Source: Candidatus Phyllobacterium onerii
GTDB taxonomy: Bacteria; Pseudomonadota; Alphaproteobacteria; Rhizobiales; Rhizobiaceae
Assembly (NCBI RefSeq): GCF_028331445.1
Contig: NZ_JAQMHX010000004.1
Location: 248,001 to 312,000 of the forward strand
DNA: 64,000 nt
Reading direction: 5' to 3'
The notes beneath the pieces were generated by a model. That model did no database searches, was not told the DNA's origin, and saw only the letters and a program-made list of their open reading frames with translations. This document shows, in pieces, positions 10,291 to 13,824 of this stretch (positions within the stretch are counted from its first letter, which is position 1; the number at the start of each line of letters is the position of its first letter). Position numbers and translations under genes: made by a program.

Positions 10291-10872
10291 TTATTCGGCC
10301 GATAGAGTTTGCGACAGGCGAACGATGATGGCCTCTCCCGATCCGCCAATGGAAATCTCTGGCGTATCTGCGGAAGCATCGATCAACGCAGCATCATGCG
10401 CGTCAAGCACTGACGACTCACCAAGAGTGATCTGGCCACTGCGGCAGAAGATGATGCAGGCATCCGCAGTGACGGGCAGAAGCTGTGTCCCATCGATGGA
10501 CAGATTGTCGACGCTGTGAGTCCAGCGCCCGCGCCGTGTCATGGCATTGAAATCTGTGATGGGTCCAGCGATCAATTTTGCGGATGCAGTCGCGTCTCCC
10601 GGGAATGGATAAGGCTTACTCGCAGGGGTCAGTCGAACGAGTGGTGTGCCCTCGACGGCAAGGTGCAGTCCTTCGCCGCTAACCACGGCCAGCGTGCGGT
10701 CGATGCCCTCAAACCGCGAAAATGGTCCATCGGAAGCAACAGTCGCCATGCTGATGCGCCAGTCGAAATCGGCGACAGATGCGAGTGGAGGAGCGACGGC
10801 AATCTCGGTGGTGACGCCGCCGCCATTCTTCCACGGCATTTGCCGGTGATCGCTGGCCCGGAGTATTTGCAT
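10291..10872 (-). CDS. hutD: HutD family protein (histidine degradation accessory)
   Basis: Cupin-fold HutD protein found in hut operons, proposed to modulate histidine catabolism by binding an intermediate such as formylglutamate. The family motif MPWKNGGGVTTEIAVAPP near the N-terminus and the segment FSRFEGIDRTLAVVSGEGL are present. Its ATG at 10872 shares one base with the hutU stop (TGATG), so translation is coupled. 193 aa. The frame open to 10917 is only read-through inside hutU. Confidence 0.92.
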   Translation of the reverse strand: MQILRASDHRQMPWKNGGGVTTEIAVAPPLASVADFDWRISMATVASDGPFSRFEGIDRTLAVVSGEGLHLAVEGTPLVRLTPASKPYPFPGDATASAKLIAGPITDFNAMTRRGRWTHSVDNLSIDGTQLLPVTADACIIFCRSGQITLGESSVLDAHDAALIDASADTPEISIGGSGEAIIVRLSQTLSAE

Positions 10873-12542
10873 CAGCCGAGGATGCCCGGCAGGTTGAGGC
10901 CCTTTTCCTTCGCGCATTCTATGGCGATCTCGTAGCCCGCATCGGCGTGGCGCATGACGCCGGTTGCCGGATCGTTCCAGAGAACGCGCTTGATGCGTTC
11001 TGCCGCATCGTCAGTTCCGTCACAGCAAATGACCATGCCGGAATGCTGGGAAAAGCCCATGCCGACACCGCCGCCATGATGCAGGGAGACCCAGGTTGCA
11101 CCGGAGGCGGTGTTGAGCAGTGCATTCAAAAGCGGCCAGTCGGAGACCGCATCGGAGCCATCTTTCATGGCTTCCGTTTCGCGGTTCGGCGAGGCGACCG
11201 AACCTGAATCGAGATGATCGCGGCCGATGACGATCGGTGCTTTCAGTTCGCCGCTGCGCACCATCTCGTTGAAAGCGAGTCCGAGCCGGTCGCGGTCGCC
11301 GAGACCGACCCAGCATATGCGCGCCGGCAGACCCTGAAACGCGATGCGTTCCCGCGCCATGTCGAGCCAGTTGTGCAGATGCGTGTTGCCGGGCGTCAGT
11401 TCCTTCACCTTGGCGTCGGTCTTGTAAATGTCTTCCGGATCGCCCGACAACGCCGCCCAGCGAAACGGCCCGATGCCCCGGCAGAACAGAGGACGGATAT
11501 AGGCGGGGACGAAGCCGGGGAAGGCAAAGGCGTTTTCCAGTCCTTCATCCTTGGCGACCTGACGTATGTTGTTGCCATAGTCGAGTGTCGGGATACCTCG
11601 TTCCCAGAAGGCGATCATGGCTTCGACATGTTCGCGCATCGAAGCACGCGCGGCTTTCTCGACGGCTTTAGGATCGGTCTCGCGCTTCTGGCGCCATTCG
11701 GCCATGGTCCAGCCTTTCGGCAGATAGCCGTTGACCGGATCATGGGCCGAGGTCTGATCGGTGACGATGTCCGGGCGCACATTGCGCCGGACGAGCTCGG
11801 GCAGGATATCGGCGGCATTGCCGAGCAGACCGACCGATTTGGCTTCGCCCGCCTTGGTCCAGCGCTCGATCATTTCCAGCGCTTCATCGAGTGTTTCGGC
11901 CTTGGCGTCCACGTACCGGGTGCGCAGGCGGAAATCGATCGAGTCCGGATTGCACTCGACGGCGAGACAGCAGGCCCCGGCCATGACGGCAGCCAGCGGC
12001 TGTGCCCCGCCCATGCCGCCAAGTCCGCCGGTCAATATCCATTTGCCCTTCAGATTGCCGCCATAATGCTGGCGCCCAGCTTCGACGAAGGTTTCATAGG
12101 TGCCCTGAACGATGCCTTGCGTTCCAATATAGATCCACGAGCCGGCGGTCATCTGGCCATACATGGCAAGACCTTTCTTATCGAGCTCGTTGAAATGATC
12201 CCAGGTTGCCCAATGCGGGACGAGATTGGAATTGGCGATCAGCACCCGCGGCGCGTTGGCATGGGTCTTGAACACACCGACCGGTTTGCCTGACTGGACG
12301 AGCAGCGTTTCATCCTCGTTCAGGGTTTTGAGGGTGGAAACGATCTTGTCGAAATCGTCCCATGTGCGGGCGGCACGGCCGATGCCGCCATAGACCACGA
12401 GCTCGTTGGGATTTTCCGCAACATCGGGATCAAGATTGTTCATCAGCATGCGCAGCGGCGCTTCGGTCATCCAGGATTTGGTGTTCAGCTTGTCGCCGCG
12501 CGGAGCGCGCACTTCACGGATATTAGAGCGGTTTGTAATCAT
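10872..12542 (-). CDS. hutU: Urocanate hydratase HutU, with a start rebuilt by an inserted element
   Basis: Converts urocanate to imidazolone propionate using bound NAD. Conserved blocks [53 protein letters not shown] and [16 protein letters not shown] are intact; 556 aa. The first residues are unusual: MITNRS is encoded by the terminal repeat of the element at 12526-12795, and the usual family sequence resumes at [10 protein letters not shown]. The native start Met-Asn-Asn-Pro-Arg-His sits 272 bp upstream at 12814. The new ATG has an AGGATG ribosome site that also lies in the element. Activity is probably kept because only the extreme N-terminus changed. Confidence 0.95.
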
Positions 12543-12795
12543 ATTGAATCATCCTGCCGGAGGGAATTTGGTTCAAGGTCGAGGGGTTTGGCGAGGCCGA
12601 TGTGGTTGCAGCGGACGACGCCGAAGCCCGATGGATTTGGGCCAAATTCACCCGGCCCTTCGGGTTTCCGGCTGGCGGCCAACCACTTTGTCAGGCGGCG
12701 TCGGACGATGGAAGGGCATCGACCTCGCCACCTTCCGCGTGGATTGTCTCGCCGTCCGAGAAACAGGATTGATACAATATGGTCACAAACCGCTC
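12526..12795. mobile_element. 270-bp MITE-like element inserted in codon 7 of hutU
   Basis: Terminal inverted repeats 12526-12556 and 12764-12795 match at about 28 of 32 positions, both starting GAGCGGTTTGT from the outside. The element is flanked by TA on each side (12524-12525 and 12796-12797), the target duplication of IS630/Tc1-mariner transposases. Removing it and one TA restores, on the reverse strand, codons for Met-Asn-Asn-Pro-Arg-His followed by Asn-Ile-Arg-Glu-Val, the normal start of rhizobial HutU. It has no transposase, so it would be moved in trans. Inside, inverted segments around 12620-12640 could fold. Confidence 0.85.
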
Positions 12796-12814
12796 TATGC
12801 CGCGGATTGTTCAT
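12539..12814 (-). other. Displaced native start of hutU reading through the element (91 codons)
   Basis: From the native hutU start at 12814, with a GGGGAG ribosome site and a TAATG overlap with the hutG stop, the frame encodes MNNPRH and then reads through the inserted element. It ends with a TGA that overlaps the new hutU ATG (ATGA, 12542-12539). It is probably not a functional protein but may be translated and keep hutG-hutU translational coupling. Confidence 0.6.
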
Positions 12815-13617
12815 TATTTGCTCCCCAGCTTGATCGCGGTCTGTCGGATGATTTCGAGAATGTCTTTGAGGTGCTTGCGCAGCCGTTCGGCTTTGGCCTC
12901 GTCATAGGCGAAAGGCGGCGCTTCCTTCGTCAGATGCGAGGACTGCGTCAGTTCCATCTGGATGGCGTGGATGCCGAGCTTTGGCTGGCCATAATGCCGC
13001 GTCGTCCAGCCACCCTTGAACCGGCCGTTGATGACGGCGTCATAACCCCGCGCCGCGAATGCGATCCGGCCGACTGCCGAGGCGATTTCCGGAGAACAGC
13101 TGTTGCCCTCATTGGTGCCGATGTTGAAATCCGGAAGCTTGCCCTGGAAGAGAAACGGGATGTGCGAACGTATGGAGTGGCAGTCGTATAGAACGACAAG
13201 GCCGTGCGCTTCGTGCACGCGCTCGATCTCCTTGGCCAGTGCGACATGGTAAGGGCTGTGGAACTGTTTCAGCCGGTATTCTATGTCCGCGGCCGTTGGC
13301 TTCTCGCCATCGCGCCAGATCGGCTTGCCGTCGAAATCAGTATCGGGAATGAGACCGGTGGTATTCTGTCCCGGATAAAGACTGACGCCTGAGGGATCAC
13401 GATTGGCATCGATGACGTAGCGATGAAAGGTGGCGCGGACAGTCGTGACCTCTGGAAGCAAGCCATCGTAGAGCTTGTCGATGTGCCAGTCCGTATCGGT
13501 GAGCATCTGGCCGGTTTCATTGAGCCGGGCGCGAATGTCGTCCGGCACATCGGTTCCCGTGTGCGGAAAGCCCAGAATTATCGGGGATGATCCCTGTTTG
13601 ACGTCGACGGGATTCAT
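12814..13617 (-). CDS. hutG: N-formylglutamate deformylase HutG
   Basis: Hydrolyses N-formylglutamate to formate and glutamate, the last step of the five-enzyme histidine pathway. The N-formylglutamate amidohydrolase family is indicated by LGFPHTGTDVPDDI, VIDANRDPSGVSLYPGQNTT, LYDCHSIRSHIPFLF (metal-binding D and H) and QMELTQSSHL. 267 aa, normal. The presence of hutF in the cluster agrees with this enzyme type rather than formiminoglutamase. The stop overlaps the native hutU ATG. Confidence 0.94.
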   Translation of the reverse strand: MNPVDVKQGSSPIILGFPHTGTDVPDDIRARLNETGQMLTDTDWHIDKLYDGLLPEVTTVRATFHRYVIDANRDPSGVSLYPGQNTTGLIPDTDFDGKPIWRDGEKPTAADIEYRLKQFHSPYHVALAKEIERVHEAHGLVVLYDCHSIRSHIPFLFQGKLPDFNIGTNEGNSCSPEIASAVGRIAFAARGYDAVINGRFKGGWTTRHYGQPKLGIHAIQMELTQSSHLTKEAPPFAYDEAKAERLRKHLKDILEIIRQTAIKLGSK

Positions 13618-13686
13618 AATTGTGTATCCAGGAACTTGTCGATAGCGGAGTTTGTGGTGTTGGGCAGTTTGCCGATTTGGAGAAAA

Positions 13687-13824
13687 CGTTGCGGTCCTTG
13701 CCCTCCCCCTTGTGGGGAGGGTGGCTGCGAAGCAGCCGGGAGGGGACTTGCTTCATTTAGAAAAACCCCTCCCCGTCGCTTCGCTCCGTCCCTCCCCACA
13801 AGGGGGAGGGCAAGGACGGCAACG
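13687..13824. repeat. RIME-like GC-rich inverted repeat element, copy 1
   Basis: Outer arms of about 30 bp (around 13694-13721 and 13790-13817) are inverted copies with core CCCTCCCCCTTGTGGGGAGG. Inner GC-rich hairpins carry GCTGCGAAGCAGC and GTCGCTTCGCTCC. It fills the hutH-hutG gap. A related copy lies at 28499-28615. The composition and structure match dispersed intergenic mosaic elements of Rhizobiales; that family link is from memory. Confidence 0.7.

Follow-up and report, generated by a model that had tools for sequence, protein, structure and literature searches.

A MITE-like element at a TA in Phyllobacterium hutU may let translation restart behind an element-encoded leader

An inverted-repeat element interrupts the 5' end of hutU, the urocanate hydratase gene, in Candidatus Phyllobacterium onerii, within the 64,000-nt stretch of contig NZ_JAQMHX010000004.1 that we analysed (the window). 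In the reading that we favour, with a probability of roughly 0.7, this is a TA-targeted, MITE-like insertion, and HutU translation restarts behind a translated leader at an ATGA junction. The coordinates of the features within the window are collected in Table 1.

Table 1. Features of the hutU region (window positions).
Feature	Position	Strand	Comment
Inverted-repeat element in hutU	12524–12797		274 bp (272 bp plus one TA); TA at both ends
Inverted arm, hutU side	12524–12551		Holds the new ATG (minus strand)
Inverted arm, hutG side	12770–12797		
Native hutU start codon	12812–12814	-	Overlaps the hutG stop (TAATG); orthologues start likewise
Native ribosome site GGGGAG	12821–12826	-	Anti-Shine-Dalgarno duplex -6.4 kcal/mol
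Leader frame	12539–12814	-	91 codons, from the native start to the TGA overlapping the new ATG
AGGA, possible new ribosome site	12552–12555	-	Within the element; duplex -5.7 kcal/mol
New hutU start codon	12540–12542	-	19 nt from the element edge (MITNRS)
hutU (urocanate hydratase)	10872–12542	-	556 aa counted from the new start
hutG (N-formylglutamate deformylase)	12814–13617	-	Upstream gene; annotation at similar plasmid loci

Anatomy of the element in hutU

The arms span 28 nt and are 89% complementary in an ungapped search, extending by a few nucleotides once a small gap is allowed, so that the 31–32 bp of the original prediction are about right; the predicted element length of 270 bp has to be corrected to the value in Table 1. 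As had been proposed, TA bounds the element on both sides, and removal of the element together with one TA restores a native start, MNNPRHNIREV. The target TA spans codons 6 and 7 (CAT AAT) instead of splitting codon 7. The native start keeps its ribosome site and its overlap with hutG, and the frame opened there runs through the entire element to a TGA (12539–12541) which overlaps the new ATG to give ATGA (12539–12542), again as predicted. Pfam urocanase domains cover residues 1–506 of the 556-aa HutU frame. Compared with shuffled sequences, the element folds with z scores of -8.6 and -7.4, one for each strand; because 102 full copies were recovered and the folds lie far below the shuffles, a chance origin of the structure is excluded. 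In Rfam, nothing matched the element at E values up to 1, and the single sub-threshold match in 11600–13700 lies outside it.

Empty sites and the state of hutU

Alignment of HutU N-termini showed that the start is uninterrupted in all 19 other Phyllobacterium genomes, 18 of which read MNNPRHN and one MNSPRHN; an uninterrupted start was also read at 16 junctions of related genomes. Since the element is absent from hutU in all 19 relatives, it is an insertion. For Phyllobacterium, the same data agree with the expectation of a HutU that begins with an NPRHN-type sequence. They also rule out both an ancient conserved spacer at this place, given the 19 empty sites, and MITNRS as the usual HutU beginning. 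The nearest relatives with an empty hutU site have CA, not TA, at the target place, and at several other sites, too, TA is missing at the precise insertion point in the closest relatives without the element.

We also considered a core landing in a pre-existing palindrome. For hutU this is ruled out, because the empty sites lack the arms as well. When 19 genomes were searched for exact matches to one arm type, 14 turned up, spread over 4 genomes; judged by their position, all are ends of the element family or of its long form.

From codon 7 on, hutU has a dN/dS of 0.011–0.024 against seven relatives, and four element-free pairs gave 0.013–0.020. The body of hutU is thus under purifying selection, although dN/dS may be uninformative if the insertion happened very recently. 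In another genome, G013, hutU is perhaps frameshifted: at two adjoining loci (L092/L093, G013:C5:684002-685661) the HutU matches overlap, covering residues 4–452 and 446–556.

A family with a conserved core and variable arms

A search of the genome carrying the window for further copies returned 25 matches, pieces and self-matches included. From the loci fetched across genomes, 102 distinct full copies were extracted at 91 sites; as at most ten candidates were scored per genome, the family comprises at least 102. As in MITEs, the copies are short, numerous and devoid of a transposase gene: 96 are 270–279 nt long, five about 350–359 nt and one 250–259 nt. Examples of the long form (approximately 354–359 nt, with about 84 extra nucleotides in mid-element) are L013 (C4:450337-450694 of the same genome as the window), L014, L144 and L168, among others; in L013 the extra nucleotides leave the leader frame open. 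At L127 (G002:C3:25700-28900), two inverted copies bracket approximately 1 kb, and a 276-aa frame stops at the second copy.

Searching the named collection for a pattern of 19 fixed core bases gave 32 matching stretches. Of these, 30 lie in Phyllobacterium, and the two outside the genus are taken as chance. Mainly on this search, the family appears to be confined to Phyllobacterium. A query with hut flanks, run against 59 genomes, matched 19 of 39 genomes outside the genus (best E value 2.8e-28), matches that may stem from any part of the query, the flanks included; one such genome, G034, gave at least ten.

The arms show an unusual pattern of variation in the 48 aligned copies. Within a copy they are on average 90% complementary (lowest 68%), as expected of terminal inverted repeats, compared with 52% between copies. 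Mean divergence between copies is 45% in the arms and 13% in the core, with a correlation of 0.14 between the two. In alignment A1 (columns 7–25 and 258–276), hypervariable arms that are complementary copy by copy thus flank a conserved core. Only about six terminal bases are conserved, and across the 48 copies we found no common end sequence that a single transposase could read; a few copies end in something other than TA. In the consensus fold, 34 of 88 pairs have changed on both sides, 21 of these in the outer stem, a level not reached in any of 500 shuffles or six slid versions; the counts are inflated by related copies, and the structure was taken from the same alignment. As a possible sign of selection acting on the arms as RNA, the mismatches within them were counted: G-T (49) outnumber A-C (29), many of them inherited together.

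The label MITE in the original prediction therefore holds in part: the number of copies, their inverted ends and the duplicated TA seen at apt (below) speak for it, while the arms vary between copies and a search for the IS630-type transposase domain DDE_3 identified no partner transposase. This domain was not detected in the genome carrying the window; in the search of 19 genomes it had matches in five and none in 14.

Element ends and the frames of neighbouring genes

To relate the element to gene frames, we took one copy per site and called coding frames at a codon score above 0.20, which gave 182 ends, 46 of them with an ATG at -19; at 120 ends no coding call was made, and one more was too short. 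Downstream of ATG-bearing ends, genes fell in frames 0/1/2 as 1/3/12 (p = 8e-4), i.e., 12 of 16 lie in the frame of the ATG, compared with 6/10/4 downstream of the other ends. Upstream genes entering an end were distributed 18/2/5 (p = 1e-4), with 18 of 25 in frame with the terminal TAG. Ends in the TAG frame and ends with an ATG do not coincide (0 of 46 ATG-bearing ends versus 18 of 136 ATG-less ones, p = 0.008). By eye, some outward calls (L121, L131, L217 and L225 among others) resemble antisense artefacts, and these were kept in the counts. Of the 7 ends that supply a start, 5 combine an ATGA with an open native-type frame; among the remaining 39 ATG-bearing ends, 5 do so (p = 0.003), one of these (L013) having afterwards been judged a supplier. 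Because the seven were chosen in the ATG frame, our claim about phase rests on the frame test and not on this comparison.

An insertion into a stop codon is seen in apt. In the genome of the window the element lies between GGGCAC and GAGCTATTC, and in G018 the empty site reads TAG followed by identical bases. The comparison shows that the element entered the TAG stop, duplicating TA and leaving the end of the protein unchanged. Target-site duplication is thus seen directly at apt, and hutU is consistent with TA. At the corresponding place, 18 other genomes have TAG (7), TAA (1) or TGA (10). As the sole stop site compared with orthologues, apt is joined by the frame count as support for the TAG. 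Directly after the apt stop region of G014 (L389) we noted TAGAGC-CTTG-GCTCTA, possibly the remnant of a deleted element. At L105 (871–1144, G009), the element lies between two genes, which we take to be murE (upstream) and murF (downstream), and the upstream frame stops 10 nt inside it.

Displaced starts at other genes

The original prediction regarded the hutU insertion as rare. Within this family it is not: by comparison with orthologues, the element has come to lie downstream of the native start in at least six more genes, namely sdhC, phnJ, cysN, a GDYXXLXY gene, an oxidoreductase gene and a sigma-54 regulator gene. For sdhC, cysN, phnJ and the oxidoreductase, orthologues were searched in 19 genomes, the one carrying the window included. 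With the bar marking the point of interruption, the native starts read MSKTNLH|ANRPL in sdhC (element in G009 and G008), MSK|LGQ in cysN (G009) and MTE|LATYN in phnJ (the genome of the window and G007); the oxidoreductase has a native M(M)NM, with the element in G008 and, via another locus, in G019. In G018 the element interrupts both the GDYXXLXY gene (MTIK|INR; 16 rows listed, one being the occupied copy) and the sigma-54 regulator (MDFQPS|VAF; 18 rows, one occupied), the latter having no clear orthologue in G014. All six genes now read from the arm as M-x-x-x-R-S, except phnJ, which reads MIESHS.

At the ATGA sites, the leader ends in a TGA at -18 that overlaps the ATG at -19, and its length varies little: 91 codons in hutU, 91 in both sdhC copies, 87 in both phnJ copies, 88 and 87 in the oxidoreductase, and 88 in the GDYXXLXY gene, where the ATGA is retained with the element in the opposite orientation. 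Leaders without ATGA are those of the regulator (95 codons, ending in TAG at -2) and cysN (5 codons). Three genes without an empty-site orthologue complete the set: the TylF-like gene at L013, a long form with a 115-codon leader and an ATGA; the POTRA protein gene at L110, whose leader ends in TAA at -12; and the GNAT gene at L113, whose leader ends in TAA at -85. L113 was scored as not ATGA, since the ATG 7 nt before the element that gives an ATGA is in the wrong downstream frame; the frame-fitting ATG lies 14 nt before the element, with the stop at -85. In total, ATGA is present at 5 of 7 orthologue-checked sites and 6 of all 10 supplying sites. The start-supplying set began as 15 loci representing 13 sites, from which four (L096, L124, L128 and L003) were set aside, their translations showing by eye a plausible native start outside the element, and to which L013 was added.

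The two sdhC insertions (L101 in G009 and L125 in G008) are at the identical place, yet closer relatives of G009 are without the element. The two copies are 13% apart in sequence, and neither is the other's nearest neighbour. They may go back to common descent followed by losses, to transfer or to repeated insertion.

How HutU may be translated

We propose that a non-autonomous, TA-targeted, MITE-like Phyllobacterium element jumped, probably by transposase action, into the TA at codons 6 and 7, and that hutU survived thanks to an outward, in-frame ATG 19 nt from the element edge and an open native frame ending in an overlapping TGA. Ribosomes would initiate at the native hutU signal and translate the 91-codon leader, thereby opening the long stem in which the new start is buried; they would then stop at the ATGA and restart HutU, with MITNRS replacing MNNPRH. 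The same arrangement would have arisen at other genes, and copies at gene 3' ends could supply a TAG stop. In a model of the whole transcript, the outer stem takes up both the new ribosome site and the new ATG (mean unpaired probability 0.07), while the ATG is 0.71 unpaired in a fold without the upstream sequence. In nine other modelled copies the same region is 0.01–0.23 unpaired.

An unlikely alternative is that the element inserts at any TA, that only copies putting a start in frame or landing in a stop persist, and that AGGA recruits ribosomes straight to the new ATG of HutU, with an incidental leader. The new ribosome site in hutU is indeed fair (-5.7 versus -6.4 kcal/mol for the native one), and frames of the leader phase are mostly fairly open anyway: at 19 of the 39 other ATG-bearing ends the open stretch reaches to 30 nt or less from the end. 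Nor does the leader peptide bear a sign of selection, with no third-position excess between same-gene copies (8/12/13 and 23/21/25). However, the models predict that the new hutU site is buried in the stem, the new ribosome sites outside hutU are weak (-2.8 to -3.7 kcal/mol), and ATGA junctions are commoner at ends that supply a start. We think it improbable that hutU is simply disabled here by a recent insertion and is a pseudogene in the making. The element is in hutU of only one of 20 genomes, that genome has a single hutU match, and histidine use may be dispensable; as against this, the 556-aa frame is intact, dN/dS is not above that of element-free pairs, and the same arrangement occurs in two species in sdhC, a citric-acid-cycle gene.

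Removal of the element from RNA or DNA, giving back MNNPRHN, strikes us as very improbable. Excision of 272 nt would restore the hutU frame, the element has a strong fold with covarying pairs, and the sequence after apt in L389 may be a deletion remnant. However, insertion phase and ATG would then be irrelevant, yet the frames favour the element's ATG and TAG, and no Rfam family was matched. Beyond restart behind a translated leader, we tentatively entertain a broader and somewhat doubtful idea: that the ends have been shaped as host punctuation, with an inward TAG restoring a stop and an outward ATGA allowing restart behind a translated leader, the arms being kept complementary so as to hide the start, and mobility depending on arm structure and not on arm sequence.

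Discussion

These observations illustrate how a mobile element can insert near the start of conserved metabolic genes while their frame stays open, with a predicted new N-terminus and a putatively coupled leader as the result. With several such sites in one genus, the question of whether elements evolve to spare the genes of their host becomes open to test. Start-codon annotation may mislead at genes carrying such elements, and how the element moves is puzzling, given arms that vary so much yet stay complementary on either side of a conserved core. In the part of the literature that was searched, we found no account of this element family or of a MITE-supplied, leader-coupled start.

IS630/Tc1-type elements and their MITEs target TA and duplicate it, features shared by the Phyllobacterium element. 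Unlike them, the present element has terminal repeats conserved over only about six bases and resides in a genome in which no DDE_3 was detected. The RIME elements of rhizobia, as described, are likewise repeated and palindromic and occur in related bacteria, in intergenic positions (PMC2573895). MITEs overlapping reading frames have been described as QMITE1 of Coxiella (PMC5896051), ERIC/RU (PMC2759123) and Correia elements (PMC2229807). As described there, they resemble the hutU element in being short and multicopy, with inverted ends, no internal transposase gene and occasional fusion to genes. The fusions described are in frame, whereas an end of the Phyllobacterium element supplies the start, several times behind a leader overlapping it at ATGA; its hypervariable arm sequence also sets it apart from all three. 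Rickettsia palindromic elements, which are kept as in-frame peptide inserts (PMC10969869, PMC2229807), are, as described, similarly palindromic and tolerated within conserved protein genes. In-frame peptide retention of that kind is not seen in hutU, where the leader and HutU frames differ. Unlike in the Rickettsia elements so described, the HutU frame restarts past the element, and the element-coded peptide would form a separate leader.
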